This document shows, piece by piece, positions 2,762 through 20,717 of a DNA stretch of 37,735 bases (positions within the stretch are counted from its first letter, which is position 1; each line of letters begins with the position of its first letter). The stretch comes from Sulfuritalea sp. (lineage in GTDB: Bacteria > Pseudomonadota > Gammaproteobacteria > Burkholderiales > Rhodocyclaceae): NCBI GenBank assembly GCA_011526165.1, contig WYAY01000133.1, positions 1-37,735 of the forward strand. The letters are read 5' to 3'. A model generated the notes under the pieces. The model saw only the letters and a program-made list of their open reading frames with translations. It searched no databases and had not been told where the DNA came from. The position numbers and the translations under genes are program-made.

Positions 2762-3505
2762 GTGCGCACCGCCCTCCTCGCCGACATCCACAGCAACCTC
2801 GAAGCCCTGCAGGCCTGCCTGGCGCATGCGCGGCGCGAGGGTGCCGAGCGCTTCGCCTTTCTCGGCGACCTGATCGGCTACGGCGCCGACCCGCTCGCCT
2901 GCCTGGACATCGTCGCCGGGCTGGTCAATGCGGGCGCGCTTGCCGTGCGCGGCAACCATGACGAGGCCTGCCTCGGCGGACAGCTCGACGCCATGCATGT
3001 CGTCGCGCGCGACGCCATCTACTGGACGCGCGAGCGGCTCGGCGAGAAGGAGCGCATCTTCATCGCCGGCCTGCCGCTGACGGTGGCGGAGGGCGAGCGC
3101 CTGTACACGCATGCCAGCGCCGACCGGCCGGAGGCCTGGACCTATATCACCGGCCCCCGCGAAGCCGCCGAGTCGCTGGCGGCGACGCCGGCGCGCCTGG
3201 TCTTCGCCGGCCACGTGCACCATCCCCTGATCTACTTCACGACGCCGGGCGGCGGCCTGCGCCCGTTCGATCCGGTGCCGGGCGTGCCGCTGCCGCTGTC
3301 CGACTTCCGCCGCTGGCTGGTGATCGTCGGCTCGGCCGGGCAACCGCGCGACGGCAACCCGGCCGCCTGCTACGCGCTGCACGACGAGGACGCCGGCACC
3401 CTCACCCACTTCCGCGTGGCATATGATGCCGAGGCGGCGGCGAAAAAAATCATCGAAGCCGGATTGCCGGAGCGGCTGGCATGGCGACTGACCAGGGGGG
3501 AATAG
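2762..3505 (+). CDS. Calcineurin-like metallophosphoesterase
   Basis: A 247-residue single-domain phosphoesterase of the calcineurin-like (YfcE/DUF2156-free, Pfam Metallophos_2) type. Every metal motif is present: D8-x-H10 (LADIHSN), GDLIGYG with D36, GNHDE with N65/H66, H117 in THAS, and GHVHHP with H151/H153. These hold two metal ions for phosphoester hydrolysis in the cytoplasm. The substrate is unknown; relatives include diadenosine-polyphosphate and protein phosphatases. The start is GTG at 2762, since the nearby ATGs at 2748 and 2751 are out of frame and MRTALLADIH is the usual beginning of the fold. No good ribosome site is visible. Its last 25 bases overlap the start of a protein-kinase stub (3481), suggesting the pair was once a co-translated phosphatase/kinase unit. 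Confidence 0.85.
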   Translation: MRTALLADIHSNLEALQACLAHARREGAERFAFLGDLIGYGADPLACLDIVAGLVNAGALAVRGNHDEACLGGQLDAMHVVARDAIYWTRERLGEKERIFIAGLPLTVAEGERLYTHASADRPEAWTYITGPREAAESLAATPARLVFAGHVHHPLIYFTTPGGGLRPFDPVPGVPLPLSDFRRWLVIVGSAGQPRDGNPAACYALHDEDAGTLTHFRVAYDAEAAAKKIIEAGLPERLAWRLTRGE

Positions 3506-3591
3506 GCGAAGGCCGGCTGGCGCCGGGCGCGGCGGTGGGCGGCTTTCGCATCGGCGAACTGCTGCACGAGGGCAACGTGGCCCTGCTCTGA
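3481..3591 (+). pseudogene. Truncated Ser/Thr protein kinase N-terminus (remnant)
   Basis: An ATG at 3481, inside the end of the phosphoesterase gene in another frame, opens 36 codons ending in TGA at 3589-3591. The product ends GGFRIGELLHEGNVALL. That matches the first strand and glycine-rich loop of Hanks-type kinases (pattern GG-[FY]-R-I-x-x-L-L-x-E-G), where a kinase would continue for about 250 more residues. Nothing of the catalytic lobe follows: the stop is one base before the end of the opposing gene. I read it as the left stump of a deleted kinase gene. The call is inference from a short match; a small unrelated reading frame is the alternative. Confidence 0.5.
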
Positions 3592-3592
3592 C

Positions 3593-6382
3593 TCAGACGC
3601 TCACGCGCGGCTTGCGGTGCTCCTCTTCGAGGTAGGCGAGGCGCTCGGCGTAGGGGATCTCGCCCTCGAAGCCGCCGAGGCGCACGTTGCGCAGCCATTC
3701 GGCGGCGTAGTAGTCCAGGACGCGCTGGACCTGCTTCTTCTCCACGCTGCCGCCGCCGAGCAGGTGCTTGAAGCGCGCCTGCAGCTTGAGGAAGGCGTCG
3801 CCCGGGTTGCGCGGCGTCGGGTAGGTCTCCAGGTAGGGCACGCCGTGTTCGAAGGTGACCGGGGAGAACAGGCCGCCCTCCTCCGAGAGATAGGCCAGGT
3901 CGTAGGTGAGGCTGTCGGCGGTGAACTTCCAGCCGGTGGTGCACGGCTGCAGGAAGTGCAGGAAGGCGCCGTCGATGCCGTCCTCCAGCGCGCGCGCCAC
4001 GACGCGGGTGATGTGCTCCTGGCGGTGCAGGTTCATGCGCGCCGAGATCGTCGCGCCGTGATCGGCCATGATTTCGACGATGGGCTTCTTGCGCAGCTCG
4101 TTGCCCATCGGCTTTTCCTGGCCCTGCGGGTTGGTGGTGGTGTGGCCGCCCGGCGCGGAAGCCGCCGAGTACTGGTTGCCGGTGTTCTGGTAGCCCTCGT
4201 TGTCGTAGCAGACGTAGAGCGCGCGCTGATTGAGTTCGAGGTCGAGCGGGTCCTGCGCCAGCTTCTGCAGGCGCGAGAACAGGCCGGAGAGGTTGCCGAA
4301 GCCGATGTCGAAGGTGGCGCCGTCGCCGCCCCAGCCCAGGTGCAGCGTGCGCTTCATGGCCGCGCGCAGGGCGGCGCCCTCGTCGCCGTTCACCTTGTGC
4401 GCATATTTCAGCCGCGCCTTCTTGGCGGCGAGGCCGCCGAGCAGCTCGGAGGGCGCGCCGCCGAAGACGCCATGCAGCGAGGGGTGCTTCTTGCCGGTGT
4501 AGGGCCAGATGCCGGAATACACCTCGAAGCAGCCGGTCGCTTCATAGGTGATGATCTCCTCGAAGCCGGTGGCGGTGGCGGTCTTGGTGACCAGCCCGTA
4601 GATGGAATTCACCGGGCAGCCGAGGCAGTTGCGGATGCCGGGTTCCAGTCCGCTGCCCATGGCGGCGAGCGGGTCGAGGTTGATGCGGGTCCACGGGCGC
4701 CGCAGCGGGTAGCGCGCCGGCACGCCGGCGCCGGCCAGCGCCACCACGCGCGCCAGGTCGTGCGCGCCGGGCGCGATGACGGCCTTCGGCAGCCACTTGA
4801 TCTCCGGCACGATCTTGTCGCGGATCAGCGCCAGCACGCGCCCCGGCGAGCTGTCGGCGCGCTGGCTGCGGCCCATGGCGAGCACGGCGCGGCGGAAATC
4901 CTCCAGCGTCGCCTTCTCCAGCGGCAGCGCGCCCCCGTGCGCGTCGGGGATGGTGAACGCCGCCTTGTCGGCGAGCGCACGCAGCTTGGAAAGCGCCTCG
5001 GCGAGCGAGAAGTTGCGCAGCACCAGCCCCTGCGTGCCGAGAATCGACGACGGCGTCTCGCCGCGCAGGCGCGCGGACACCACGGCGGAGAGGTTCACCA
5101 GCGGCTCGGGGTTCTCCAGGGCGCGGATCAGCCGCAGCGTGTCGCGCGCGGTGGCGACGACAGCGCCGAGCGCGTGCTTCTCCAGCACCGCGATGCAGTA
5201 CAGGTCGAACAGCAGGTCGAGATCGGAGAGCGCATCCACGCGCGCCTCGGCACGGCGCCCGCCGCGGCCGGAATCGATGCTCACGCTGTAGCCGGCGGCG
5301 GCCTCGCGCAATTCCGCCAGGGCGGCCTGCTGCGCGGCGCGCGCCGCGTCGTCGAATTCGCCGGCGGCCTTCATGCCGGCCGAGACGGCCAGCCAGTTGA
5401 GCTCGGGGCGCAGCGCGACCAGCGCACGGCCGAGCTCGGTCTCCTGCCAGCGCGTCGGGTCATCGCCGCGCACCGCCGCCGGATGCGACAGCGCCTCGCG
5501 CTGCGCCTCGGGGAAGCGGAAGGCGGCGAGCAGGCCGGCCAAAGTCAGCTTCGGCGCGCCGGCAAGGCGCGCCTCCTCGCGCGCCAGCAGCGCATCGAGG
5601 AAGGCGAGGAATTCGGCCGCCGGCACGCCATAGTCGGCGCCGGTCTCCTCGGCCAGCGCCGCCAGCCCGGCGCCATCCATCTCGGCGAGCGCGCGGTTGA
5701 AGTCGCCCTGGCGGAACACCGTCACGACGCAGCCCTGCGCGGCGAGCGCCGCCGCGCGCTGCGCCAGCGCCGCCGCATCGGCCTGCCGGTTGCCCGGCGC
5801 CAGCTCGACGAAGCCGCTCAGGTGGTTGTGGAACAGCGCGCTGGCGTTGATGGCCGTGTCGCGCACGCCGAGGCGCTGCAGCAGGCGCGCCGCCTTCTGC
5901 AGGCTGGCGAGCAGGTATTCCAGCGCGATGCCGGCATCCTGGGCCAGCGCCAGCAGGCCGCGCTCCGGTCCGCCTTCGGCGAGCCCCTTGACGGGCAGGC
6001 CGCGACGGGCAAGTTCGTGCAGCACCGACCAGGCCTCGTCGGCCTTCGAGGCCGAGGCGGGCAGGCGCGCCAGTTCGTCGCTCAATTCGTCGAGGAGAAA
6101 GTCGGAGCGCTTGACCTCGGCGCCGAGCGCATGCATCAGCTCCGCCACGCCGGCGGCGACCAGCCACTGCTCGCGCGGGATCAGGCCGGCGACTTCCTCG
6201 GCGGAAGACTCGGCGACGTTCACCGCCAGCGGGCTGGCGCCGATCAGCAGCTGCACCCCGGCGGGCAGCGCCTGCGCCTGGGCGACGATGCGCGCGGCGA
6301 GGGCCAGGCCCGCATTCGGGTCGAGCTTGCCGGCGTGGAAGAACTCGGCCGCGGCGGATTTTTTCGCTTTCTTCATCTGCAT
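3593..6382 (-). CDS. Pyruvate:ferredoxin oxidoreductase-type beta subunit with ~550-residue N-terminal extension
   Basis: A 929-residue protein. Residues from about 560 on match the thiamine-diphosphate beta subunit of pyruvate:ferredoxin oxidoreductases. NCLGCPVN (C586, C589), ATGCFEV (C618) and QPCTTGW (C814) give the four [4Fe-4S] ligands. GWGGDGATFDIG (686-688 GDG) and CYDNEGYQNTGNQ are the TPP/Mg and substrate-channel motifs. Ordinary PorB proteins are about 300-330 residues, so residues 1-550 are extra. This part is helix-rich and alanine/leucine-rich, with almost no cysteine (C218, C396), no membrane segment and no motif I recognise. It is the last gene of the cluster, 124 bases after the gamma-alpha gene, with two hairpins between them. 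The ATG at 6382 has only a weak ribosome site (AGGA); MKKAKK two codons on is an alternative. Fold and cofactors are clear; the substrate is not. Confidence 0.85.
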   Translation of the reverse strand: MQMKKAKKSAAAEFFHAGKLDPNAGLALAARIVAQAQALPAGVQLLIGASPLAVNVAESSAEEVAGLIPREQWLVAAGVAELMHALGAEVKRSDFLLDELSDELARLPASASKADEAWSVLHELARRGLPVKGLAEGGPERGLLALAQDAGIALEYLLASLQKAARLLQRLGVRDTAINASALFHNHLSGFVELAPGNRQADAAALAQRAAALAAQGCVVTVFRQGDFNRALAEMDGAGLAALAEETGADYGVPAAEFLAFLDALLAREEARLAGAPKLTLAGLLAAFRFPEAQREALSHPAAVRGDDPTRWQETELGRALVALRPELNWLAVSAGMKAAGEFDDAARAAQQAALAELREAAAGYSVSIDSGRGGRRAEARVDALSDLDLLFDLYCIAVLEKHALGAVVATARDTLRLIRALENPEPLVNLSAVVSARLRGETPSSILGTQGLVLRNFSLAEALSKLRALADKAAFTIPDAHGGALPLEKATLEDFRRAVLAMGRSQRADSSPGRVLALIRDKIVPEIKWLPKAVIAPGAHDLARVVALAGAGVPARYPLRRPWTRINLDPLAAMGSGLEPGIRNCLGCPVNSIYGLVTKTATATGFEEIITYEATGCFEVYSGIWPYTGKKHPSLHGVFGGAPSELLGGLAAKKARLKYAHKVNGDEGAALRAAMKRTLHLGWGGDGATFDIGFGNLSGLFSRLQKLAQDPLDLELNQRALYVCYDNEGYQNTGNQYSAASAPGGHTTTNPQGQEKPMGNELRKKPIVEIMADHGATISARMNLHRQEHITRVVARALEDGIDGAFLHFLQPCTTGWKFTADSLTYDLAYLSEEGGLFSPVTFEHGVPYLETYPTPRNPGDAFLKLQARFKHLLGGGSVEKKQVQRVLDYYAAEWLRNVRLGGFEGEIPYAERLAYLEEEHRKPRVSV

Positions 6383-6431
6383 GATTGCGTCCTGGCGAAG
6401 ATCATTCGATTCATTCCCACCCTCTCCCCCG

Positions 6432-6493
6432 CCCTCTCCCGCCCGGGCGGGAGAGGGGGTATTCGTCCCCTCTCCCCGCTTGCGGGGAGAGGG
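6432..6493. repeat. Two GC-rich perfect hairpins between cluster genes (REP-like)
   Basis: Bases 6432-6457 form a perfect 26-base palindrome (CCCTCTCCCGCCC and its complement). Bases 6468-6479 pair with 6482-6493, a 12-bp stem with loop TT. Both arms carry the same CCCTCTCCC core, and a further copy of the motif, GGGAGAGGGG, follows. There is no T run, so these are not typical terminators. They resemble REP-type intergenic repeats, and related hairpins occur at 11740 and 20674. They may tune expression of the last gene. Confidence 0.7.
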
Positions 6494-6506
6494 CTAGGGA
6501 GAGGGG

Positions 6507-8783
6507 CTATAGGTTCACTCCCACATAAGCCTTCTCGCGCGCGAGATGGATCTCGCCCTTCTGCTCGCGCAGCGCCTTGAGCATCTCGTCGCGCGCCAGG
6601 GCCAGCGAAGGCGTGCGCCCGCCGAGGCCGTAGATGCGCGAGTACAGGCGCGTGCCGCTGGCGGCGAGGTCGTATTCGTTGGCCACGCCGGCGAGCTCGG
6701 TGTACAGGCGCCCGCCGACGGCGCCGAAGGGGTCGTCGCGGTCGTACACGAAGACGTGCTTGCCGGCGATCAGCTTCGCCCACTCCGCCTTCGGGAAGGG
6801 GCGCAGCAGATTGGGATGCAGCACGCCGACCTCGACACCGATTGAAGCAAACTCGCGCGCCACCTCCTCGAAGGTGCCGTGCGCGGCGCCGGCGACGACG
6901 AACAGCGTCGGCGCCCGCTCGTTCCAGGCCTGCACCGCGCCGTAGCGGCGGCCGGTGGCGGCGGCGAACTTGTCGAACACCCTCTCGCACACCTCCAGCG
7001 CCAGCGCCATGGCGACATGGCGCTGGTAGTCGGTGTCCATGCGCGCGTTGGAGAGCTGCAGCGCGCCCATGATCGACTCGTTGGGCGTGAACACATAGCG
7101 CCGCACGTAGTCGAAGGCCGGGTCGGCGTAGAGCGCGCGCGCCTGCGCGTCGGTGAGCGCCAGGTAGCGCTCCGGCGCATGGCTCACCTCGAAGCCCTCG
7201 GAACCGACGATCACCGGCGTCATCACCGCGCGGTCGGGGATCATCTCGATGGCGCCGCGGCGCACGCGGCCGTCGGGCCCGATCAGGCGCGCCGGCCGGT
7301 ACTCGGCGTAGAGGCCGATGAGCCAGGCCATCAGGTGGAAGTCGTAGGCCTGCTGCACGTCGCGCGTCATGAAGACGATGTAGCCGGCGTCGAGCGCCAC
7401 CTTGTAGAGGTCGGAGTGGTCGTTCTCGACGTCGAGCGGCGCATTGAGCGAGCGCACCACGTTGGAGATCACCACGTTGCCCATGCGCATGCCGCCGATG
7501 GTGTGCAGGATCTCGGCCATCAGCGCCAGGCCCTGCGATGACGAGGCGGTGAACGCCAGCACGCGGTCGCGCGCCGCGCCCATCAGGGCGCCGGCGGCGC
7601 CGTGCTCGGACTCCGGCGTCACCGATTCGGCGGTAAGGTCTCCGTCGGCGATCATCTGCGCCAGGTATTCGACGATGGCCGTCTGCGGCGTGATCGGATA
7701 GGCCGCCACCACCGAGGGGAACTGGTTGAGCACCTGCGCCGCGGCGCGGGCGATGGCGCGGTTGCCTTCCTCGCACTGCACTTCCTGGCCGGCGGGCGGG
7801 TCGTTCGGCGCGACGCGGCCGAGCGCGGCGCGCGCCGGCAGTCCGGGCGCCTCGCCCAGCACCTGCTCGCGCGCCTGGCGCAGGGCGTTGACGTTGGCGC
7901 GCACCTTCTCGCCCGGACCGAACTTGTCGGTGAGCGAAGCTTCCACCACCTTGGCGAAGGCCTCGGCATCCACCGCCTCGGCGCCGAGCAGGCCGAGCAT
8001 GCCGCCGATCAGGGCGTAGTTGGGCGGCATGCGCTTGCCGCGCACCAGCCGGTCGGCGTCGAGCGTGCACAGGTGGTAGGGCTCGTGGAACTCGGCCACC
8101 TTGCGGAAGGCCTTCGGCTCCAGCTCGGTGTTGACGATGATGGCGATGTGGCGCGGATCGTGCGGCGGATACTCGCGCAGCAGCGTGCGCAGCAGCGGGA
8201 ACAGCTTCGGGTCGAACAGCAGCACCACGTCGGGCACGACGAAAGGCGCGTGGTTGAGGATGGGCTCGCGGCTGACCACGCCGTAACCCTTCACCGGCGC
8301 GCCCTTCTTCGAGGGATCGAAAAGCGGGAAGGCGCGGCCGTTGTAGCCGGCGGCAACGAAGGCGGCGACGAGGTCCTGCGTCGCCGAGACCACGCCCGAG
8401 CCGGCCGAGCCGAGCAGGAACACCTTGAGCTGGCGCGCCTCGATGCGGCGGACGAAGTCCTGGCTGGCGAAGGCGGGGTGCGTGGCATAGAGGCGCTGCA
8501 GGGCGCCGGCCGGGTCGAGGCCCTGCTCGCGCAGGGCGAGCAGCGATTCGACCGGATAGTTGCCGGGCTTCAGCGGTGCCTCGACGATGCCGGCGAGGAA
8601 GTCGCGCCCGGCGGCGTCGATGCCGCCGGTCTGGGCATCGTCGAGATCGCCGATGCGCAAGCCCCCGAGCGTGAAGCCGACGCGCCCGCGCGAGGCCATC
8701 TGCACGGCGCGGGCGAAGGCCACCAGGCTCTTGTGGCGGCTGGCGAGCACCTGCGGGTCGCCGCCGAGTTGGATCGCGGTCAT
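6507..8783 (-). CDS. 2-oxoacid:ferredoxin oxidoreductase, fused gamma-alpha subunit (pyruvate type)
   Basis: A 758-residue protein. Residues 1-110 are unassigned. Residues about 117-305 form a gamma (POR_C) domain, with VFLLGSAGSGVVSATQ as the glycine-rich entry and FDPSKKGAPVKGYGVV as the conserved mid-motif. From about 335 the alpha subunit follows: AAYPITPQTAIVEYL (around 361), a TPESEHGA region, TASSSQGLALMAEIL (412-426) and NDHSDLYKVAL. Together with the beta protein at 3593 it would complete a PFOR-type enzyme that decarboxylates a 2-oxoacid to the acyl-CoA and reduces ferredoxin. The start at 8783 is set by an ATGA overlap with the stop of the iron-sulfur protein gene, a sign of translational coupling. 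The long N-terminal piece before the gamma domain is unusual. Pyruvate is the likeliest substrate from the PorA-like alpha motifs, but this is not provable here. Confidence 0.85.
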   Translation of the reverse strand: MTAIQLGGDPQVLASRHKSLVAFARAVQMASRGRVGFTLGGLRIGDLDDAQTGGIDAAGRDFLAGIVEAPLKPGNYPVESLLALREQGLDPAGALQRLYATHPAFASQDFVRRIEARQLKVFLLGSAGSGVVSATQDLVAAFVAAGYNGRAFPLFDPSKKGAPVKGYGVVSREPILNHAPFVVPDVVLLFDPKLFPLLRTLLREYPPHDPRHIAIIVNTELEPKAFRKVAEFHEPYHLCTLDADRLVRGKRMPPNYALIGGMLGLLGAEAVDAEAFAKVVEASLTDKFGPGEKVRANVNALRQAREQVLGEAPGLPARAALGRVAPNDPPAGQEVQCEEGNRAIARAAAQVLNQFPSVVAAYPITPQTAIVEYLAQMIADGDLTAESVTPESEHGAAGALMGAARDRVLAFTASSSQGLALMAEILHTIGGMRMGNVVISNVVRSLNAPLDVENDHSDLYKVALDAGYIVFMTRDVQQAYDFHLMAWLIGLYAEYRPARLIGPDGRVRRGAIEMIPDRAVMTPVIVGSEGFEVSHAPERYLALTDAQARALYADPAFDYVRRYVFTPNESIMGALQLSNARMDTDYQRHVAMALALEVCERVFDKFAAATGRRYGAVQAWNERAPTLFVVAGAAHGTFEEVAREFASIGVEVGVLHPNLLRPFPKAEWAKLIAGKHVFVYDRDDPFGAVGGRLYTELAGVANEYDLAASGTRLYSRIYGLGGRTPSLALARDEMLKALREQKGEIHLAREKAYVGVNL

Positions 8784-10201
8784 TGTTTCTGTTCTCCCAT
8801 GTCGAACTGGCGCGGCGCGCCCTCGATGACGTCGTGCGGGCAGCAGGAGATGCAGATGCCGCAGGACTTGCAGTAATCCGGATCGACCTCGAAGACGAAG
8901 GGCTGCTGACCGAAGAGGTCTTCCATGTCGCCGATCGCGGCATGGCTGCCGTCGGCCTTCAGGAGCCAGGCGCGCAGGCCGCGCACCAGCGCCGGCATGG
9001 CGCCGGTCGGCACCAGCGGCACGATGCGGATGGCCGAGGTCTCGCCGCCGCCGCCCTCCGGGCAGTGGGTGACGCAGAGCGCGCATTCCGGCCCGAGGCA
9101 TTTCTCCAGCCGCGTGTACACCGGCACCTCGTTGCCGTAGGGCGTCTTCCAGGCGGTCGACGTGCCCGGCGGCAGCAGGCCGCCGATCGGGCGGCGCTTG
9201 GCGCCCAGGTAAGCCTGGCTGACGCGCGCCTGGCCGATCAGCTCGGCGAGGCGCTGGCGCCCGCCGGCCGAGTCGATCTCGATGTCGGCATGCAGCACCT
9301 CGTCGATGACCGCGTGCAGGATGGCGCCGAAGTCGTACTGGCCCTGCGTGAGACCGGACAGCGACGGCAGCGCCCGGTAGACGGTGCGCGCGGCGCGGCG
9401 CGCCAGCTCCGGCGCGCGGCCGTTCTCGCGCGCCCAGCGTTCGAGCTCGGCGTCCGGATCGCGGCTGTCGACGAAATGGCCGGCGACGCCCATGGTCTCG
9501 ATGAGCGGATAAAAGCCGGCCTCGTCGAGCGCCCGGTTGGCCGCCTTCAGGTCCTCGGCGTCATAGGGATCGAAAGTCAGTCCCGCCGACACGGCGAGCG
9601 GATTGGCCACCGCGAAGTCCGCCGGCGGCGGGTTGGCGGCGGCGTCCGCGGCATAGGGGTTGGGCAGTTCGACGAAGAGGGTCGACTCGTAGAGCGGGTT
9701 GACCATCTCCAGCGAGATGGCGCGCTCCGGACAGATGTAGATGCACTGCGCGCACTGCGAGTTGCCGGTGCATTCCTCGTCGCGACGCTGCTCGTCGGGC
9801 TTGCCGAAGCCGTCGTCGCTGTAGACGCGCTTGGGGCAGACCTGGATGCACAGGCGGCAGCCCTTGCACAGGGCGTAGTCGACGATCTGGCGGTAGATCG
9901 GCTGCGACTTGGCCGAAGGCTCGAGCAGCAGTTCGGGCGGCAGCGGCCCCTCGGCGATGAATTCGATGCGGCGCGCACGGCGCTTCGCCTCGGCCAGCGC
10001 TGCGGCGTCGAACAGCAGGCGGCGCAGGCGTTCGAGCACCGTGCCGTCGACCAGGGCGCGGGCCAGCGCCAGGCCCTCGACGTGGAAGCCTGCGGCGACG
10101 GCCTGCTGCGCCAGCGCCTCCAGCTCGGCGCCGGCGGCGGCCGGCGGCGGCGCCACGCGGCGCCGGCTGGCGCTGCTGGCAACGGGATTTTGCACGGTCA
10201 T
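8780..10201 (-). CDS. Four-cluster ferredoxin-type electron carrier of the oxidoreductase cluster
   Basis: A 473-residue protein with two separate pairs of [4Fe-4S] motifs. Pair one is C112-x2-C115-x2-C118-x3-C122-P with C144-x5-C150-x2-C153-x3-C157-P. Pair two is C368-x4-C373-x2-C376-x3-C380-P with C444-x2-C447-x2-C450-x3-C454-P. The first pair looks like the delta subunit of Kor/Oor enzymes and the second like the delta (PorD) subunit. About 210 cysteine-free residues lie between them, and residues 1-100 carry no cluster. It sits between the Kor-type and Por-type genes, 13 bases after the beta-gamma gene and overlapping the gamma-alpha gene by four bases. The start at 10201 has AGAGGTG six bases upstream. 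I infer that it collects electrons from one or both oxidoreductases. It has no NAD or flavin motif, so the final acceptor must be elsewhere. Confidence 0.85.
   Translation of the reverse strand: MTVQNPVASSASRRRVAPPPAAAGAELEALAQQAVAAGFHVEGLALARALVDGTVLERLRRLLFDAAALAEAKRRARRIEFIAEGPLPPELLLEPSAKSQPIYRQIVDYALCKGCRLCIQVCPKRVYSDDGFGKPDEQRRDEECTGNSQCAQCIYICPERAISLEMVNPLYESTLFVELPNPYAADAAANPPPADFAVANPLAVSAGLTFDPYDAEDLKAANRALDEAGFYPLIETMGVAGHFVDSRDPDAELERWARENGRAPELARRAARTVYRALPSLSGLTQGQYDFGAILHAVIDEVLHADIEIDSAGGRQRLAELIGQARVSQAYLGAKRRPIGGLLPPGTSTAWKTPYGNEVPVYTRLEKCLGPECALCVTHCPEGGGGETSAIRIVPLVPTGAMPALVRGLRAWLLKADGSHAAIGDMEDLFGQQPFVFEVDPDYCKSCGICISCCPHDVIEGAPRQFDMGEQKQ
9574..9582 (-). repeat. Recurring motif GACTGACTT inside the four-cluster ferredoxin gene
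   Basis: On the coding strand it reads GGCGGGACTGACTTTCGA, encoding Ala-Gly-Leu-Thr-Phe-Asp. The 14-base core GGGACTGACTTTCG recurs exactly at 35171 in yhdP. Confidence 0.6.
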
Positions 10202-10214
10202 TGCATCACCTCTC

Positions 10215-11720
10215 TCAAAGTCCCTTGAGGCGGTCCGCCTCGGCGAAGCCGGTGGCGAGCGCCTTCTGGTTGAGGGCCGGGTTCTTCTTGCCGACGCTCT
10301 TCATCACGGCGGCGGTGACGGCCTCGCGCGACATCAGGCCGAAGTAGTCGAGCGCCAGGGCCAGCGCCAGGATGTTGATGCCGAGCTCGCGCTTCGGCGG
10401 GCGCACCTCGCGCGCCAGCAGCTCGCCGATGGGCGAGGCGATGACGCGCGGGTCGTCGTAGGTCTCGCGCACCGCCGTGGCGTTGGCGAGGATGCGGCCG
10501 TCGGGCGCCACCTCCTTGCGGAACTTGTCGAACGTCTCCTGGTTCAGCGCCACCAGCACGTCGAGCCGGTCGGACTGCGGGAAGTGGATCTCGCCGTCGC
10601 TGATGGTGACGTCGGAGTAGGCCTCGCCGCCGCGCGCCTCGGGGCCGTAGTTCTTCATGAAGACGCCGTTCTTGCCCGCGCGCACCGCCGCCGCAAGGGC
10701 GATCTCGCCGGCGCTGATGACGCCCTGCCCGCCCGAGCCGGCGAAGCGCAGCGAGGTGCGCTTGGCGCGCAGGTCGGTCTCGGGTTGCGGCGACACTGCC
10801 TCGACCTCTTCCCGCCCCGCCTCGACCGCCTTTCTGCTGCGCGCCAGGCAGTCGGCGTAGCCGGGCGTGTTCTGCAGGTCCGGGCGCGCCACGCGGTGGA
10901 TGACGCCGAGCGGCTTCAGGCGCGCGCGCTCCTCCGCCGTCATCTCGCGCCAGCGCTCCACCGACGCGATCTGCTGCTCGATGTGCTGGCGGTAGCGGAA
11001 GGACTCGGCGCGCTTGTTGCGCGTGCCCCAGCCGGTGTGGCAGAAGCCGAGGACGTTGATGAAGGAGAAGCCCTTGTGGGCCAGCCCTTCCGCGATCAGT
11101 TCGTCGAGCTGGTCCTGGTGCTCCTGCAGGGTGGTCACCGCGCCCTGGGCGACGAAGCCGGCGCCGGCGCCGATGGCCAGGTCGATCAGGCTGAAGGACG
11201 GCTCGAACACGCCGTAGGGCGCCGAGGCGCCGACCTCGCCCTGCGGCGAAGTCGGCGAGTGCTGCGCGCCGGTCATGCCGTAGGAGTGGTTGTCGTAGAC
11301 GATCAGCGTCATGTCGAGGTTGCGCCGCGCGGCATGGATGAAGTGGTTGCCGCCGATGGCGAAGATGTCGCCGTCGCCGGCGGCCAGCACCACGGTGAGC
11401 TCGGGCCGCGCCATCTTCAGCCCCGAGGCGAAGGCGAGCGAGCGGCCGTGGGTGGTGTGCACGGTGTTGAAGTCGAGGTGGCCCGGCATGCGCGAGGTGC
11501 AGCCGATGCCGGAGACCATGGCGACGTTGTTCTTGATCGCCTCGACGCCGGCCGGATCCATGTAGTCGACGCCGAGGCGGCGGCCGAGCTGGCGCATCAG
11601 CGCCACCTGGATCGAGCGCTGCATGTTGCCCAGGCCGCAGCCCTCGCACCAGATGTTGCGGCGCATCTGCGTGCGCCGCAGGTCGGGCATTTCAAGCGAG
11701 CAGACAAAGGGGGCGTTCAT
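10215..11720 (-). CDS. 2-oxoacid:ferredoxin oxidoreductase, fused beta-gamma subunit (2-oxoglutarate type)
   Basis: A 501-residue fusion. Residues 1-280 are a KorB/OorB-type beta subunit: WCEGCG (C25, C28), SGIGCTSRMPGH (C74), AAGDGDIFAIGGNHFIHAAR (TPP site, 115-118 GDGD), VYDNHSYGMTGAQHSPT and FCHTGWGT (C227) supply the TPP pocket and the [4Fe-4S] ligands. Residues about 322-500 are a gamma domain: RFAGSGGQGVISAGEIAL, then NYGPEARGGEAYSDV. Gamma is more often a separate subunit or fused in front of alpha, so beta-gamma is an unusual order. With the stand-alone alpha encoded upstream (11800-13077) it makes a complete enzyme of the 2-oxoglutarate/2-oxoisovalerate family. The ATG at 11720 follows GGAGGGGG. 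A 79-base spacer with a hairpin separates it from the alpha gene. Substrate assignment is tentative. Confidence 0.87.
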   Translation of the reverse strand: MNAPFVCSLEMPDLRRTQMRRNIWCEGCGLGNMQRSIQVALMRQLGRRLGVDYMDPAGVEAIKNNVAMVSGIGCTSRMPGHLDFNTVHTTHGRSLAFASGLKMARPELTVVLAAGDGDIFAIGGNHFIHAARRNLDMTLIVYDNHSYGMTGAQHSPTSPQGEVGASAPYGVFEPSFSLIDLAIGAGAGFVAQGAVTTLQEHQDQLDELIAEGLAHKGFSFINVLGFCHTGWGTRNKRAESFRYRQHIEQQIASVERWREMTAEERARLKPLGVIHRVARPDLQNTPGYADCLARSRKAVEAGREEVEAVSPQPETDLRAKRTSLRFAGSGGQGVISAGEIALAAAVRAGKNGVFMKNYGPEARGGEAYSDVTISDGEIHFPQSDRLDVLVALNQETFDKFRKEVAPDGRILANATAVRETYDDPRVIASPIGELLAREVRPPKRELGINILALALALDYFGLMSREAVTAAVMKSVGKKNPALNQKALATGFAEADRLKGL

Positions 11721-11739
11721 CGTGGTGCCCTCCCCCCTG

Positions 11740-11760
11740 CCCCCTCCCGGCGGGAGGGGG
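11740..11760. repeat. GC-rich hairpin in the alpha to beta-gamma spacer
   Basis: A perfect 9-bp stem (11740-11748 with 11752-11760, loop GGC) of CCCCCTCCC type, in the 79-base gap between the alpha and beta-gamma genes. It resembles the two hairpins at 6432-6493. Its right side ends 20 bases upstream of the beta-gamma ATG and supplies the GGAGGGGG ribosome site, so folding could mask translation. Confidence 0.55.
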
Positions 11761-11799
11761 TGACGACAGTTCGCCGCTGCGCGGCGCCGGTTTCCTGGT

Positions 11800-13077
11800 T
11801 CATCGCACGATCTCCTGGTGAATGTCGCGCGGCGCGATGAGGCGCATGTCGACGCGGTGTATGCCGATCACCGGCGGCGGCGGCGTGCCGGCGGCGCGTG
11901 CCGCCTCGCAGGCGAGGCGCTCGACTTCCAGCCGGTACTGGCCGAGGTTGAGCTCGGCGACGACGACCTTCTTCGCGCGCGCCAGGTGCGGCGCGAAGGC
12001 GCCGGCATCCGAGGGCCACAGCGTGATCGGGCGCAAGAGCCCCGCCTTGACGCCCTGGGCGCGCGCCTCCAGCACGGCGTCCTTGGCGGCGCGGGCGGTG
12101 ATGCCGTAGGCCACCACCAGCACCTCGGCGTCCTCGGCGAGGAAGCTCTCGGTCTTGAGGATGTCGGCGCGCGCCTCCTTCGTCTCCAGCTTGGCGTGGA
12201 TGCGTTTCTGCAGCTGGTCGATCAGGCGCACGTCCTTGGTCGGCAGGCCCTTGCGGTTGTGGTAGAGGCCGGTGAAGTGGGCACGGTAGCCCTCGCCGAA
12301 GGGCGCCAGCGGCGGCACGCCGCTGGCGGTCTGGCCGAAGGCCTCGTAGTCCTCCGGCGCGCCGGAGGGATAGGGGCGATTGACAACGGGCACGAGGTCG
12401 AGCGGCGGCAGCAGCACCGGCTCCTTCATCTGCGCCACCTTGGCGTCGGGCAGCAGGATCACCGGCGTGCGGTACTTCTCGGCGATGTTGAAGGCGCGCA
12501 CCGTCTCCTCCCAGCACTCCTGCACCGTGGCCGGCGCGATGGCGACGATGGGATGGTCGCCGTGGGTGCCCCAGCGCGCCTGCATCACGTCGGACTGGCC
12601 GGGATCGGTCGGACCGCCGGTCGAGGGTCCGCCGCGCATGACGTTCACCACCACCAGCGGCACTTCCACCAGGCAGGCGTAGCCGAGGTTTTCCTGCTTG
12701 AGCGAGAAACCGGGGCCGGAGGTGGCGGTGAAGGCCTTGACGCCGCCGAGCGAGGCGCCGATGGCGGCGGCGATGCCGGCGATCTCGTCCTCCATCTGCA
12801 GGTAGCTGCCGCCGTGGCCCATGATGTGACGCGCGGCGTATTCGAGCACCTCGGTCGAGGGCGTGATCGGATAGCCGCCGAAGAAGCGCGCACCGGCTTC
12901 GAGCGCCGCCTGCGCGATGGCGTCGTTGCCGCCCAGGGTGGTGCGCCGCGCCTGCTTCAGGCGTCCGGCCTGGATGGCCTCCCGCACTGCATTCACCCGG
13001 CGCAGGTCGATGACCGGTGCCGAGCCCGCCGCCGGCGCGCGTCGCGCCTGCGCGGCCTCTGCCGCTGCTGCTGACAT
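11800..13077 (-). CDS. korA: 2-oxoacid:ferredoxin oxidoreductase alpha subunit (2-oxoglutarate type)
   Basis: A 425-residue alpha subunit. It has GGYPITPSTEVLEYAA (67-80), TATSGPGFSLKQEN (118-130) and RGGPSTGGPTDPGQSDVMQ followed by ARWGTHGDHP (148-176), which is the signature of KorA/VorB/OorA proteins. Residues 1-45 are a low-complexity leader. The gamma domain that precedes alpha in some KorA proteins is absent; it is carried by the next gene instead. The enzyme would convert a 2-oxoacid plus CoA to acyl-CoA, CO2 and reduced ferredoxin; 2-oxoglutarate is the best guess. The start at 13077 is chosen for GAGGAAAT just upstream; a longer frame reaches 13200 through AT-rich DNA and is unlikely. 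It is the first gene of the five-gene cluster and is divergent from chrA. Confidence 0.88.
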   Translation of the reverse strand: MSAAAAEAAQARRAPAAGSAPVIDLRRVNAVREAIQAGRLKQARRTTLGGNDAIAQAALEAGARFFGGYPITPSTEVLEYAARHIMGHGGSYLQMEDEIAGIAAAIGASLGGVKAFTATSGPGFSLKQENLGYACLVEVPLVVVNVMRGGPSTGGPTDPGQSDVMQARWGTHGDHPIVAIAPATVQECWEETVRAFNIAEKYRTPVILLPDAKVAQMKEPVLLPPLDLVPVVNRPYPSGAPEDYEAFGQTASGVPPLAPFGEGYRAHFTGLYHNRKGLPTKDVRLIDQLQKRIHAKLETKEARADILKTESFLAEDAEVLVVAYGITARAAKDAVLEARAQGVKAGLLRPITLWPSDAGAFAPHLARAKKVVVAELNLGQYRLEVERLACEAARAAGTPPPPVIGIHRVDMRLIAPRDIHQEIVR

Positions 13078-13105
13078 GATTTCCTCGCTCCTGGACGCGC
13101 CCCGC

Positions 13106-13119
13106 CGCGATGCATCGCG
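13106..13119. promoter_or_regulatory. 14-bp palindrome upstream of the oxidoreductase cluster
   Basis: CGCGATGCATCGCG is a perfect palindrome 29 bases before the korA ATG. It lies next to the AT-rich stretch 13121-13165 (runs of A/T such as TATTTTTTTAA and ATTTGATATATAG) where the promoter most likely lies. It is placed so that a bound regulator could block transcription start or early elongation. No regulator is known from the sequence. Confidence 0.4.
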
Positions 13120-13443
13120 ATCTATTTTTTTAAGGCGCAAATATTTGATATATAGGATATTCCCCCGCGGACCCACTAGGCCGCACGATAGCCGAGTCAC
13201 CGGGAATTCTCAACTTTCCTGATGGGGGTATATGGCGATCTTTTGACCTGAGGCAAAAGTCAGTCTGCGCGGGACGGCGGTGCGATGAACTTGCCGCACC
13301 GCCGACTGCCCCGCCCGGCGACTGTCATTCATGGCGCAGTCATTCTGTTAAAATTTTTCCGCCGGGAAATCGCGGACTCCCGGCTTTCCCAAGACGGTGT
13401 CCCGTCCAAGTGCCGCCCATCGTGATTCCTGCGAGGATATATC
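13120..13443. other. Divergent intergenic region between korA and chrA
   Basis: No gene is seen here. The korA side is strikingly AT-rich (13121-13165) for this genome. The middle has an inverted repeat CTTTTG / CAAAAG (13240-13259) overlapping one copy of the recurring AAGTCAGTC motif (13257-13265). On the chrA side a strong hairpin (13275-13284 with 13295-13304, 10-nt loop) precedes a possible -10 box TAAAAT (13349-13354). No clear -35 box accompanies it; two direct GTCATTC repeats (13324, 13339) lie there. Promoter positions are tentative. Confidence 0.5.
13257..13265 (-). repeat. Recurring motif GACTGACTT, intergenic copy
   Basis: Reads CAGACTGACTTTTGCC on the minus strand, pointing toward korA. 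It is one of seven exact copies of the 9-mer in the window and one of two outside genes. The flanks resemble the other intergenic copy at 27574. Confidence 0.6.
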
Positions 13444-14805
13444 GTGGACACCGACAACACCCAAGCTCCCCCACCCGTTTCGCTCGGCGAGGCGTTTCTC
13501 TACTGGCTGAAGCTCGGCTTCATCAGCTTCGGCGGCCCGGCCGGGCAGATTTCCATGATGCACCAGGAACTGGTCGAGCGCCGGCGCTGGATCTCCGAGC
13601 GGCGCTTCCTGCATGCCCTCAACTATTGCATGCTGCTGCCCGGCCCGGAGGCGACGCAGCTGGCCGTCTACATCGGCTGGATGATGCATCGCACGCCCGG
13701 CGGCATCATCGCCGGCGTGCTGTTCGTGCTGCCCTCGCTGTTCCTCCTCATCCTGCTCACCTGGATCTATCTGGCCTTCGGCAGCCTGCCCGTGGTGGCC
13801 GGCATCCTCTACGGCATCAAGCCGGCGGTGACCGCGATCGTGGTGTTCGCGGCGTACCGCATCGGCTCGCGCGCGCTGAAGAACGGCGTGCTGTGGGCGA
13901 TGGCGGCGGCGGCCTTCGTCGCCATCTTCGCCTTCGACGTACCCTTCCCGGCCATCGTCCTCGTCGCCGCCCTCCTCGGCTACGTCGGCGGCCAGCTCGC
14001 ACCGGGGAAGTTCAAGGCCGGCGGCGGCCACGGCGCGGCCGACAAGCATTTCGGCCCGGCCCTCATCGACGACGATACGCCGCCGCCATCCTGGGTGCGC
14101 TTCTCCTGGGGCCGGCTGGTCGGCTATAGCGCTGTCGGCCTCGCGCTCTGGGCCGGCGCCATGGCGCTGCTGACGGCGCAGGGCGGCTGGGGCGGCGTGC
14201 TGACGCAGATGGGCTGGTTCTTCACCAAGGCGGCGCTGCTCACCTTCGGCGGCGCCTATGCCGTGCTGCCCTACGTCTACCAGGGCGGCGTCGAGACCTA
14301 CGGCTGGCTCAGCGGCCCGCAGATGATCGACGGCCTGGCGCTGGGCGAGACGACGCCGGGGCCGCTGATCATGGTGGTGGCCTTCGTCGGCTTCGTCGGC
14401 GGCTGGACCAAGGAAATTTTCGGCACCGAATCGCTGTTCCTCGCCGGCGCGGCGGGCGCGACGGTAGCGACCTTCTTCACCTTCCTGCCCTCATTCCTGT
14501 TCATCCTCGTCGGCGGCCCGCTGGTGGAGGCGACCCACGGCGACATCAAGTTCACCGCGCCGCTGACCGGCATCACCGCCGCCGTCGTCGGCGTCATCGT
14601 TAACCTGGCGGTATTCTTCGCCTGGCACGTGCTGTGGCCGCAGGCCAGCGCGGCAGCGCCCTTCGCCGGAGGCTTCGAATGGCCGGCGGCGCTGATCGGG
14701 CTGGCCGCCGCCGTCGCCCTGTTCCGCTACAAGCTCGGCATCATGCCGGTGATCGGCGCCTGCGCGGCGGCGGGGCTGGCCCTTTCTCTCTTGCCGGCCG
14801 CATGA
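13444..14805 (+). CDS. chrA: Chromate transporter ChrA (long, two-domain form)
   Basis: A 453-residue inner-membrane protein of the CHR family, with the usual duplication of the Chromate_transp domain. The N-terminal half opens with LKLGFISFGGPAGQISMMHQ and continues to YCMLLPGPEATQLAVYIGW. The C-terminal half repeats it as TKAALLTFGGAYAVLPYVYQ and LALGETTPGPLIMVVAF. About ten hydrophobic segments are visible, and the two halves are joined by a hydrophilic linker around residues 185-225. ChrA exports chromate using the membrane potential, which gives chromate resistance. The start is GTG at 13444, with GCGAGGAT upstream. The ATGATG at its stop overlaps the next gene's start, so both are translated together. 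No ChrB-type regulator is present. Confidence 0.92.
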   Translation: MDTDNTQAPPPVSLGEAFLYWLKLGFISFGGPAGQISMMHQELVERRRWISERRFLHALNYCMLLPGPEATQLAVYIGWMMHRTPGGIIAGVLFVLPSLFLLILLTWIYLAFGSLPVVAGILYGIKPAVTAIVVFAAYRIGSRALKNGVLWAMAAAAFVAIFAFDVPFPAIVLVAALLGYVGGQLAPGKFKAGGGHGAADKHFGPALIDDDTPPPSWVRFSWGRLVGYSAVGLALWAGAMALLTAQGGWGGVLTQMGWFFTKAALLTFGGAYAVLPYVYQGGVETYGWLSGPQMIDGLALGETTPGPLIMVVAFVGFVGGWTKEIFGTESLFLAGAAGATVATFFTFLPSFLFILVGGPLVEATHGDIKFTAPLTGITAAVVGVIVNLAVFFAWHVLWPQASAAAPFAGGFEWPAALIGLAAAVALFRYKLGIMPVIGACAAAGLALSLLPAA

Positions 14806-15404
14806 TGCGCGGCATCCTGGCATGCGCCGCACTGCTTTCCGCCTGGTCGGGAGCGGCGCTCGCCCAGGCACCCATCCCGCCATCCTCGGTGGTGCGCTTC
14901 AACACCCTCTGCGCCACCTGCCACGAGGGCGAGTGCAGCGCGCGCCTGAGCTTCCGGCTCGATCCCGGCGCCACCGACGGCCACATCCGCCGCTATACCG
15001 GAGACATCAGCCCGCAGGCCGCGCGCGAACTCAACGCGCTGCTCGAGCACATGAAGCTCGAGTGCGGCTACTACGCCATCGACCTGCCCGCGCCGAAGGA
15101 CGGCCGCTGGAAGGCGGCGCTGCTGCAGCAGCTGCATGCCGCCGAGGAGAGGGCCTACTTCATCCCGCTCGGCCGACTGGAAGCGGGGCGGCACCGCTTC
15201 ACGCTCGGCTTCGAGGGCGAGGCCGAACTCTCGGTGCAGCTCGTCTCGGCAACCTTCGAGATCGCCGAGCAGCCGGCGCTAAAGACAGGGAACGGACGCG
15301 TCGTCGTCGAGTTGGAGGCGGCAAGGGCCGGCGAGCACTACCTGCGGCTGCGCACCGAGCAGCCGGCCCGCCTGCTTACGCTGGAAAGGGATTCGCTACG
15401 CTGA
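14802..15404 (+). CDS. Secreted protein with one c-type haem motif
   Basis: A 200-residue protein. Residues 1-22 form a signal peptide (hydrophobic core ILACAALLSAWSGAALA, cleavage likely after ALA-QA). At residues 36-40 CATCH is a CxxCH haem-attachment site, followed closely by more cysteine in HEGEC. A later cysteine lies in KLECGYY. The rest, from about 100 on, is beta-rich (repeated EAGRHRFTLGFEGEAEL-like strands) and unlike a small cytochrome c. It is therefore a periplasmic monohaem protein with an extra domain I do not recognise. It starts inside the stop codon of chrA (ATGA), so the two are one operon. Its stop lies one base from the stop of the opposing hyfI. Haem binding is inferred from the motif; the function, perhaps periplasmic electron transfer or redox sensing, is unknown. 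Confidence 0.8.
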   Translation: MMRGILACAALLSAWSGAALAQAPIPPSSVVRFNTLCATCHEGECSARLSFRLDPGATDGHIRRYTGDISPQAARELNALLEHMKLECGYYAIDLPAPKDGRWKAALLQQLHAAEERAYFIPLGRLEAGRHRFTLGFEGEAELSVQLVSATFEIAEQPALKTGNGRVVVELEAARAGEHYLRLRTEQPARLLTLERDSLR

Positions 15405-15405
15405 A

Positions 15406-15918
15406 TCAGCGCCGCACCGCCGCCAGGATGCCGGCGAGCAGGGCCTGCGGCGTCGGCGGGCAGCCGGGCACGCGCACATCGACCGGGATGACGTTCTCCA
15501 CCGCGCCGCAACTGGCGTAGCTCTCGCCGAACACCCCGCCCGTGCAGCCGCAGTCGCCCACCGCCACCACCAGCTTGGGGTCCGACGTGCAATCGTAGGC
15601 CACCTTCAGGGCATGCGCCATGTTCTTCGTCACCGGGCCGGTGACGAGCAGCAGGTCGGCATGGCGCGGACTGGCGACGAACTTGATGCCGTAGCCCTCG
15701 AGGTTGGTGCAGGGATTGTTCAGCGCGTGGATCTCCAGCTCGCAGCCGTTGCAGGAGCCGGCGTCCACCGCGCGGATGGTCAGCGCGCGGCCGAGGATGC
15801 GCAGGATCTCGTCGCTCATCCGGCTCATTTCGCGCGCCATCTCGCGCTCGCCGGCGGGGGCAGGCGGCGGCTCACTGACGATGCCGGTGCGCAGGATGCG
15901 GCGGAGCATGGGGATCAT
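15406..15918 (-). CDS. hyfI: Hydrogenase-4/complex I-like small subunit (HyfI/NuoB family)
   Basis: A 170-residue protein of the NuoB/HyfI family, holding one [4Fe-4S] cluster at the membrane arm junction. GSCNGCELEI (C56, C59), GDCGCTGGVF (C123) and VPGCPPTP (C153) are the cluster ligands. It is shorter than HyfI of E. coli (about 250) and has a 40-residue basic leader that may bind the membrane or partner subunits. The start at 15918 is set by an ATGA overlap with the hyfG stop. It is the last gene of the six-gene operon. As in complex I, it would hand electrons from a ferredoxin-type partner to the HyfG active-site region. Confidence 0.88.
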   Translation of the reverse strand: MIPMLRRILRTGIVSEPPPAPAGEREMAREMSRMSDEILRILGRALTIRAVDAGSCNGCELEIHALNNPCTNLEGYGIKFVASPRHADLLLVTGPVTKNMAHALKVAYDCTSDPKLVVAVGDCGCTGGVFGESYASCGAVENVIPVDVRVPGCPPTPQALLAGILAAVRR

Positions 15919-17474
15919 GAGTCGTGTCCCGAGTAGGAAAGGTTGAACGACTTGTTGATGAGCGGGAAGTCGGGAACGATGTCCTTCATCACCGCATGTT
16001 CCAGCGCCGGCCAGGCCTGCCAGGAAGGATCGTGCGGATGCACGCGGGCAAGGCGTCCCTCGCCGTCGAGCTGCAGGCCGACCACCACTTCGCCGCGCCA
16101 GCCCTCGACCGCGCCGAGGCCCTGCGCGCCGGCCAGCGGCGGCAGCTCGGCGCGCAGTTCGCCATCGGGCAGCCCCACGGCGATCTCGCGCAGCAGGCGC
16201 AGCGACTCGAACGTTTCCGCGAAGCGCACCGCGGCGCGCGCGGCGACGTCGCCGCGCTCGTCGGTGGCCGGGCGCACGCCCAGCATGGCCCAGGGCGGCG
16301 GCGGCGTGTAGCCGGTGCGGTGGGCGCGCCCGTCGAGGATGAGTCCGGTGGCGCGCGCCGCCAGGCCGCTCAGCGACAGTTCGCGCGCCAGCGCCGCGTC
16401 GATGGCGCCGGTGGTGGCGAAGCGGTCCTGCAGGCCGGCGTGCTCGTCGTAGATCTTCTTCAGTTCCTTCACCTCGCGGCCGATGCCGTCGCACTGCTCG
16501 ACGATGGAAGACAGGCCCGGCGCTTCGAGGTCGAGCGCAACGCCGCCGGGCACGATGCGGTCCATCATGAAGCGGTGGCCGAAGAGCTTACCGTTCAGGC
16601 GCAGCCAGTCCTCCTTCAGGCGCATGAACTGCGAGAAGCCGAAGGCCAGCGCGGCGTCGTTGCCGAGCGCGCCGAGGTCGCCGAGATGGTTGGCGACACG
16701 CTCGCGCTCCAGCATCAGCGCGCGCAGCATGAGGGCGCGCGGCGGCGGGCTGACGCCGCAGGCCGCCTCCGCCGCCATGGCGTAGGCCCAGGCGCAGGCG
16801 CAGGTCGAGTCGCCGGAAATGCGCCCGGCGAGCCGCGCGCCGTCGGCGATGTTTTTCCCGACGAACAGCTTCTCGACGCCCTTGTGCTGGTAGCCGAGGC
16901 GCTGCTCCAGGCGCAGCAGCCGCTCGCCGATCACCGAGAAGCGGAAGTGCCCCGGCTCGATGATGCCGGCGTGGATGGGGCCGACGGGAATTTCGTGGGC
17001 GCCCTCGCCGCCGACCTGGACGAAGTCGTAGTCGCTCGGTGCGTTGGTGAAGCCGGTGCCCTCGCCCGCGTCGTGGCGCAGCGGGAACCAATCCTCCGGC
17101 CAGGCGCCGTGGCGCAGCCAGGGGCGCTGGTCGCCGCCCTCGTGGGCGATGCCGACCAGATCGCGCGTCGCCCGCTGCATGCGGTTGGCGGCGGGAAAGA
17201 TACCGGCGAGGTCGGGATAGGTGGGGCGATCCGCCGGCAGGTCGAGGCTGAGCCAGGCGTGGCCGGCATCGATTCCGAACACGCAATGCAGGCGAAAACC
17301 GCCGCTGCGCAGGCGCTCGTCGCTGCCCCACAGCGCGGCCAGGCGGCCGTCGGTGCGGTGCACGGCGACGGCGAAGGCCTGCAGGGCTTCGCCGTTGTCG
17401 GCATGCCCGCGCCAGACCGGGCTGCCGATGCCGGGCTGCTTGTCGAACTCGATGGGCTCGTCGAAGAATCTCAT
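15915..17474 (-). CDS. hyfG: Hydrogenase-like large subunit without NiFe ligands (Ehr type, HyfG family)
   Basis: A 519-residue NuoC-NuoD-type fusion. The NuoC-like part (about 1-135) has RDLVGIAHEGGDQRPWL and DWFPLR. The NuoD/HycE part has EIPVGPIHAGIIEPGHFRF, LGYQHKGVEKLF and FPLINKSFNLSYSGHD at the C-terminus. Real NiFe large subunits have two CxxC pairs. Here the first site reads RISGDSTCACAW (around 218-228) and lacks the R-x-C-x-x-C pattern. The C-terminal DPCxxC site reads DPSWQAW, with no cysteine. The protein therefore should not bind NiFe and belongs to the Ehr (energy-converting hydrogenase-related) group. It lies four bases after hyfF and overlaps hyfI. Its role in redox-linked ion pumping is inferred; the substrate (quinone or another acceptor) is unknown. 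Confidence 0.88.
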   Translation of the reverse strand: MRFFDEPIEFDKQPGIGSPVWRGHADNGEALQAFAVAVHRTDGRLAALWGSDERLRSGGFRLHCVFGIDAGHAWLSLDLPADRPTYPDLAGIFPAANRMQRATRDLVGIAHEGGDQRPWLRHGAWPEDWFPLRHDAGEGTGFTNAPSDYDFVQVGGEGAHEIPVGPIHAGIIEPGHFRFSVIGERLLRLEQRLGYQHKGVEKLFVGKNIADGARLAGRISGDSTCACAWAYAMAAEAACGVSPPPRALMLRALMLERERVANHLGDLGALGNDAALAFGFSQFMRLKEDWLRLNGKLFGHRFMMDRIVPGGVALDLEAPGLSSIVEQCDGIGREVKELKKIYDEHAGLQDRFATTGAIDAALARELSLSGLAARATGLILDGRAHRTGYTPPPPWAMLGVRPATDERGDVAARAAVRFAETFESLRLLREIAVGLPDGELRAELPPLAGAQGLGAVEGWRGEVVVGLQLDGEGRLARVHPHDPSWQAWPALEHAVMKDIVPDFPLINKSFNLSYSGHDS

Positions 17475-17478
17475 GGCG

Positions 17479-20545: not shown

Positions 20546-20561
20546 GCACCCGAGCAACGCA

Positions 20562-20693: not shown

Positions 20694-20717
20694 CCGGGGG
20701 GTGGGGGGCGATCCTCC

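Follow-up and report, generated by a model that had tools for sequence, protein, structure and literature searches.

Could two 2-oxoacid:ferredoxin oxidoreductases (OFORs) be organized around a single electron carrier? Ferredoxin-dependent 2-oxoacid oxidoreductases handle CO2 entry and exit in the reductive and oxidative tricarboxylic acid cycle and provide the cell with a very strong reductant. The question is raised by a stretch of 37,735 nucleotides from Sulfuritalea sp. (GCA_011526165.1, contig WYAY01000133.1, positions 1 to 37,735; hereafter the window), in which five minus-strand genes at 3593-13077 had been predicted to hold two such enzymes with one four-cluster ferredoxin protein, here called Fd4, between them. 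Judged from sequence comparison across genomes, these genes are an operon-like cassette that is rare and occurs in some betaproteobacteria. We give about an even chance to the reading that the cassette is a two-headed 2-oxoacid oxidoreductase system in which both delta roles are joined in Fd4.

Gene content of the cassette

All five genes were open without internal stops in the open reading frame check and follow the order korA-korBC-fd4-porCA-porBx. KorA (11800-13077, 425 amino acids) is an Oor/Kor-type alpha subunit with POR_N and PFOR_II domains in Pfam, and KorBC (10215-11720, 501 amino acids) is a beta-gamma fusion with TPP_enzyme_C and POR domains. Next comes Fd4 (8780-10201, 473 amino acids), the presumed bridge, which matched ferredoxin-type families only (Pfam and NCBIfam). 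PorCA (6507-8783, 758 amino acids) combines a 118-residue N-terminus of no assigned family with gamma and alpha parts (POR, POR_N and PFOR_II in Pfam), and PorBx (3593-6382, 929 amino acids) carries a PorB-type beta part behind an N-terminal part of about 570 residues, likewise of no assigned family. Pfam and NCBIfam together found both sets to be complete, with alpha (domains I/II), gamma (III) and beta (VI), confirming the two full sets that the original prediction had read from five same-strand genes; the genes lie at the coordinates which that account gave, and it left the long N-terminal part of PorBx unmentioned. The cassette provides a separate gamma for each head and no delta gene apart from Fd4.

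The four-cluster ferredoxin protein

Fd4 contains 17 cysteines, 16 of which fall in four four-cysteine motifs (residues 112-122, 144-157, 368-380 and 444-454) with a longer first gap in motifs two and three, which bears out the prediction of a single ferredoxin protein between the sets with two cluster pairs far apart. All 17 cysteines were invariant in the five Fd4 sequences compared. The regions around the clusters were strongly conserved, with 59 of 72 columns invariant for pair 1 (82%) and 100 of 134 for pair 2 (75%), and invariance was far lower in the N-terminus (38 of 95 columns) and in the middle (70 of 169; 40-41% for the two). Both of these parts, of about 95 and 169 residues, were nonetheless kept in all five sequences, and each of the 16 region-by-pair estimates of the ratio of nonsynonymous to synonymous substitution rates (dN/dS) was less than 1.

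The second cluster pair (Cys 368-454) lies with a PIGG/PG/KT/PVY stretch in a PorD-like part at 8780-9217. The last third of Fd4 aligned in two pieces with residues 3-79 of the delta chain of a solved pyruvate:ferredoxin oxidoreductase (9bt4_G; E = 1.4e-5 for the whole); taken alone, the piece with PIGG...PG...KT...PVY and the first cluster gave E = 0.7 (11.8 bits), and the piece with the second cluster E = 0.001. The PorD hallmark of two four-cysteine motifs behind a PIGG...PG...KT stretch is present, and PorD models were the two best NCBIfam matches of this part. Whole Fd4 scored 53.7 bits against TIGR02179, below the cut-off of 60.05, so that it is PorD-like and not a curated PorD. For the middle of the protein there was a weak profile match (probability 54%) that included the insert in the delta part of the hosts' very long single-chain OFORs.

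The two catalytic heads

KorA passed the curated cut-off of NF006412 (2-oxoacid:acceptor oxidoreductase alpha) and not that of the 2-oxoglutarate model NF007206, and its best solved match was 1yd7_A (349 bits), followed by 8ys5_A, a 2-oxoglutarate synthase alpha subunit (290 bits). The best solved match of the KorBC beta part was 8ys5_C, a 2-oxoglutarate ferredoxin oxidoreductase beta subunit; we take 8ys5 to be OorABCD of H. pylori. KorBC scored below NF007207 and passed the cut-off of none of the 25 NCBIfam models listed.

On the Por side, the nearest model to PorCA was PorA_Arch (211 bits, cut-off 550), and the best solved match of its alpha part was the pyruvate enzyme 9bt4. The beta domain in the last third of PorBx was barely above the Pfam cut-off for TPP_enzyme_C (22.2 against 21.9 bits) and was clearer in the NCBIfam PorB models (138 bits, cut-off 405), with 9bt4_C and 5c4i_C as solved matches of the core. 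From these similarities, PorCA and PorBx may work like a Por while standing outside curated Por membership. The N-terminal part of PorBx (about 570 residues) had no match in NCBIfam, in Pfam (searched with the whole protein) or among solved structures, and residues 1-118 of PorCA had none in NCBIfam; both extensions were kept in four of four aligned sequences, the window's included.

The YPITP motifs of KorA (69-73) and PorCA (362-366) were invariant in four of four sequences, as were Arg148 of KorA and Arg444 of PorCA. Arg444 aligns with an arginine of 1b0p and 7plm, and Arg148 is presumably the equivalent of the substrate arginine, going by its motif context. The roles of the YPITP motif and the substrate arginine in alpha are described in the accessible text of PMC5020499. 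KorBC has a predicted [4Fe-4S] site formed by Cys25, 28, 74 (invariant in four of four full-length rows) and 227 (five of five), and PorBx a conserved predicted site at Cys586, 589, 618 and 814. Arg77 of KorBC aligns with the lysine counting as residue 49 of chain 5b48_B, which we take to be the Sulfolobus tokodaii enzyme; Val621 of PorBx, placed by hand, lies three residues past the matching cysteine, as Lys49 lies past its own. In the S. tokodaii enzyme, K49I abolished the use of 2-oxoglutarate and kept that of pyruvate, as far as the accessible text describes it (PMC5020499). Arg77 and Val621 would thus be in keeping with one head for 2-oxoglutarate and one of pyruvate type, and the nearest relatives suggest 2-oxoglutarate as the substrate on the one side and pyruvate, or some other small 2-oxoacid, on the other.

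Occurrence and genomic organization

We scanned contigs of at least 3 kb from 84,980 species genomes for Fd4, using a pattern scan that would miss distant relatives, and 31 candidate stretches yielded four confirmed loci (93, 85, 73 and 68% identity). In three of them (L003, L005 and L006) the complete cassette is present with the gene order of the window. The fourth (L004) is a contig of 3,932 bases that carries just korBC-fd4-porCA; elsewhere in its genome (G1022) a second contig encodes full-length PorBx (87%) and a third one KorA (93% over residues 1-306, where the contig ends). The original prediction had named co-occurrence in related genomes as a check and half a cluster beside an intact ferredoxin protein as a counter-case; we found the five genes together in all five Fd4 genomes, the window's included, contiguous and in one order in four, and half a cluster in none. 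Because the genes recur together in every one of these genomes, the grouping is not due to chance.

The distribution is patchy. In whole-protein searches, Fd4 was found in 2 of 200 genomes of the order (the window's own and G083, the L003 genome), in 1 of 369 of the class and 1 of 101 of the family (its own in both cases; two other genomes sampled from the same genus lacked it), and in 2 of 64 genomes of the family of G083, namely G083 and the L005 genome, both of one genus. PorBx had a match in 18 of 398 genomes of the phylum, over its whole length in the window's own only and over about residues 574-898 at 35-40% identity in the other 17. PorCA was found in 3 of 399 genomes of the order, the third match covering the alpha part only, and its nearest relative outside the cassette (in G1125) seems to belong to a conventional set in which the delta-, alpha- and beta-like pieces are separate. 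Plasmid records gave no Fd4 match, and PorBx matched there over its core only, in three records.

Adjoining genes were a metallophosphoesterase and a chromate transporter in the window, an alpha/beta hydrolase and MgtE in L003, genes without a Pfam match plus an AraC regulator on one side and UvrB on the other in L005, and AAA and TetR in L006. Since they differ among the four unbroken loci, the cassette looks like a stand-alone unit, with one partial exception: L006 too has an alpha/beta hydrolase, as the second gene following the cassette and on the opposite side to that in L003. The differing flanks and the patchy distribution suggest that the cassette moved as a block.

The junctions from korA to porBx in the window measured +79, +13, -4 and +124 nucleotides, such that the Fd4 stop overlaps the PorCA start by 4 nucleotides. 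Across the four unbroken loci, with gene starts picked by alignment, 13 of 16 junctions were 79 nucleotides or shorter, four of these being 4-nucleotide overlaps, and the remaining three measured 109, 124 and 166 nucleotides. The 124-nucleotide gap between porCA and porBx (6383-6506), which compares with 9, 8 and 5 nucleotides in L003, L005 and L006, has a strong GC-rich hairpin (fold z = -5.25). GC-rich, repeat-like inserts occur at different cassette junctions in two genomes, at 6383-6506 in the window and at 7243-7351 in L003. A promoter-like site on the minus strand upstream of korA (13185-13213; 0.3 expected in shuffles) was the only one in 3300-13450, as judged by consensus match alone.

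Host context

We counted 10, 10, 11, 9 and 12 POR gamma domains in the five genomes, including the cassette's two, and found a match to benzoyl-CoA reductase B in four of the five, over the family cut-off in two. The hosts are thus probably anaerobic degraders of aromatic compounds with several other OFORs. The E1 component of 2-oxoglutarate dehydrogenase was found in four genomes and was missing from the window's genome, which is 85% complete; we rejected a general role of the cassette as a replacement for this dehydrogenase because E1 is present in the other four. A general role as dedicated electron donor of benzoyl-CoA reductase was also unsupported, the reductase being over cut-off in just two of five genomes, and both of these genomes have other POR gamma domains no more than 10 kb from the reductase gene. 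Speaking against this rejection, the reductase of the L003 genome is on the cassette contig, about 31 kb away.

A proposed two-headed enzyme and its alternatives

In a two-headed system, KorA and KorBC would form a 2-oxoglutarate-type head and PorCA and PorBx a pyruvate-type head, each binding thiamine pyrophosphate at the alpha-beta interface and carrying a single [4Fe-4S] cluster in its beta part. The first cluster pair of Fd4 (Cys 112-157, covered by an 84-residue query stretch at 9692-9943) would dock on the Kor head and the second, PorD-like pair on the Por head. Each beta cluster would hand electrons to its own pair, and the electrons of both heads would enter one four-cluster protein, either to leave by a common exit or to pass from head to head. 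We infer that pair 1 serves Kor as its delta from gene order and from the fact that the cassette has no further delta gene, and these two observations together with the fusion in Fd4 argue for physical bridging; the substrates and the direction of electron flow are likewise conjectural. Within Fd4 the two pairs are arranged colinearly with the Kor and Por halves of the cassette, and a korD-porD fusion formed where two operons met would produce this gene order.

It is improbable, in our estimate, that Fd4 goes further and wires the heads together for redox-neutral coupling, with one 2-oxoacid oxidised and a reductive carboxylation at the other head. Such a coupled enzyme could, for example, convert 2-oxoglutarate and acetyl-CoA into succinyl-CoA and pyruvate, or the reverse, without free ferredoxin; the 2-oxoglutarate and pyruvate half-reactions have nearly equal potentials. 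If coupling were true, cells living on acetyl-CoA derived from aromatics would gain pyruvate. A delta-delta fusion that is kept would physically link the pyruvate and 2-oxoglutarate nodes, and the cassette allows a direct test of electron exchange between such enzymes without diffusing ferredoxin.

Several results weigh against a two-headed system. The original prediction had likened pair 1 to a Kor/Oor delta subunit and pair 2 to a PorD; the second likeness held, and for the first the best matches were generic 2[4Fe-4S] domains, with OGOR_delta in sixth place in NCBIfam (27.2 bits) and the OorD chain 8ys5_D 29th of 34 solved matches (E = 0.014), which points to a weak likeness to Kor/Oor delta at most. 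OFORs without any ferredoxin domain exist, for instance KorAB of Hydrogenobacter thermophilus, which is specific for 2-oxoglutarate without a residue matching Lys49, according to the accessible text of PMC5020499; Arg77 of KorBC is therefore a weak guide. With 9-12 POR gamma domains per host, a free ferredoxin or an outside delta could serve the Kor head. All listed NCBIfam scores of PorCA and PorBx were below curated cut-offs, the AlphaFold models of Fd4 (mean pLDDT 45.8, five-row alignment) and PorBx (39.6, four rows) were unusable, and the cassette comes from just five genomes, two of them of the same genus.

The generic matches of pair 1, and the description of OFORs without an intramolecular ferredoxin domain (PMC5020499, accessible text), also favor an arrangement that we consider unlikely though not remote, in which Fd4 serves the Por head alone. 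The PorD-like half would then act as delta of the Por enzyme, with the first half serving as an exit ferredoxin built into the same protein; the Kor head would use free ferredoxin like two-subunit Kor enzymes, and the two enzymes would simply be operon neighbors. However, KorA and KorBC lie close to the Oor type, the solved form of which (8ys5) includes a ferredoxin-type chain D of 113 residues, and the Kor genes are present in all five genomes. A chance fusion of the delta genes of two ordinary enzymes, which would fix their stoichiometry without electron coupling of the heads, has a low probability in our view: subunit fusions readily occur in the family, and beta-gamma and gamma-alpha fusions stand in the same cassette, but the retention of the N-terminus and middle of Fd4 in all five sequences, and of the extensions of PorCA and PorBx in four of four, suggests an assembled structure and disfavors a mere accident. 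Apart from bridging, and with a probability that is not additive with the others, the Por-type head might act on an aryl or branched 2-oxoacid in aromatic catabolism instead of central metabolism. The apparent aromatic-degrading lifestyle of the hosts with their benzoyl-CoA reductase B matches, the position of this gene on the L003 cassette contig, and the distance of PorCA and PorBx from curated pyruvate models are all consistent with such a substrate. We nevertheless think it rather unlikely, since the best solved matches are chains of the pyruvate enzyme 9bt4, pyruvate synthase subunits head the NCBIfam matches, and the part of the neighbors of the four unbroken loci that was scanned included no recognisable aromatic-pathway gene.

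Neighboring genes

The window also contains a complex-I/group-4-hydrogenase-like membrane cluster at 15406-22727, with 20-kDa, 49/30-kDa, NADHdh and two antiporter-like subunits. Its large subunit reads RISGDSTCACAW at the position of the CxxC pair of NiFe enzymes, and taking this pair to be the NiFe motif, we presume that the complex is hydrogenase-related without NiFe. This cluster was set aside as an electron acceptor of the cassette, as nothing comparable was found among the scanned neighbors in L003, L005 and L006. The tRNA-Met that ARAGORN called at 15014-15085 may be spurious; it overlaps an opposite-strand open reading frame (14634-15404) with no Pfam match. Elsewhere in the window's genome, a further OFOR-rich cluster (L054, G000:C149) has a Kor-like pair, ferredoxin-type subunits and a PorD-PorA-like set, and possibly serves aromatic acids.

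Comparison with known systems

Described OFORs differ in the way a single catalytic set is fused and in the presence or absence of a ferredoxin domain, as the accessible text of PMC5020499 and PMC8091585 presents them. The 8ys5 enzyme consists of separate chains including the 113-residue ferredoxin-type chain, whereas in the cassette beta and gamma are fused and a separate delta gene is lacking. The pyruvate:ferredoxin oxidoreductase 9bt4, with alpha, beta, gamma and delta chains, ranked first among solved structures for three parts of the cassette, namely alpha in PorCA, the core of PorBx and the PorD-like portion of Fd4; the cassette departs from it in the gamma-alpha fusion, the 570-residue addition on beta, the joining of delta to a second ferredoxin domain and the extra sequence between the delta clusters. 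Single-chain pyruvate:ferredoxin oxidoreductases (1b0p and the very long host versions) have the same catalytic domains and a built-in ferredoxin part, but combine one catalytic set in one chain where the cassette has two sets around one carrier. The very long host versions, L061 (G1022:C275) and L060 (G1024:C114), are open frames of 1,644 and 1,690 residues, and a long one in the window's genome (L058, G000:C142) has 1,085 residues and is cut by the contig; all three comprise alpha, gamma and beta as well as a delta part interrupted by an insert.

In the literature on 2-oxoacid oxidoreductases, with thin coverage of subscription papers, we found no enzyme in which two catalytic sets share a joined delta, which agrees with the original view that no enzyme of such make-up had been described, apart from a partial precedent in the por/vor clusters of Thermococcales (PMC4058850). 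In these clusters, according to the accessible text, POR and VOR are encoded together with Por/VorG common to both, and in T. guaymasensis por/vor forms three transcription units. The likeness to the cassette lies in two OFORs placed in one cluster with a shared subunit. One gamma serving two alpha/beta sets, as in Por/Vor clusters, does not occur in the cassette: the archaeal enzymes share gamma and have a delta each, whereas the two heads of the cassette have a gamma each and the ferredoxin protein in common. Within the portion of the literature covered, Thermococcales por/vor is thus the closest precedent and the only shared-subunit case that we met, and a carrier in which two deltas are joined appears to be new.

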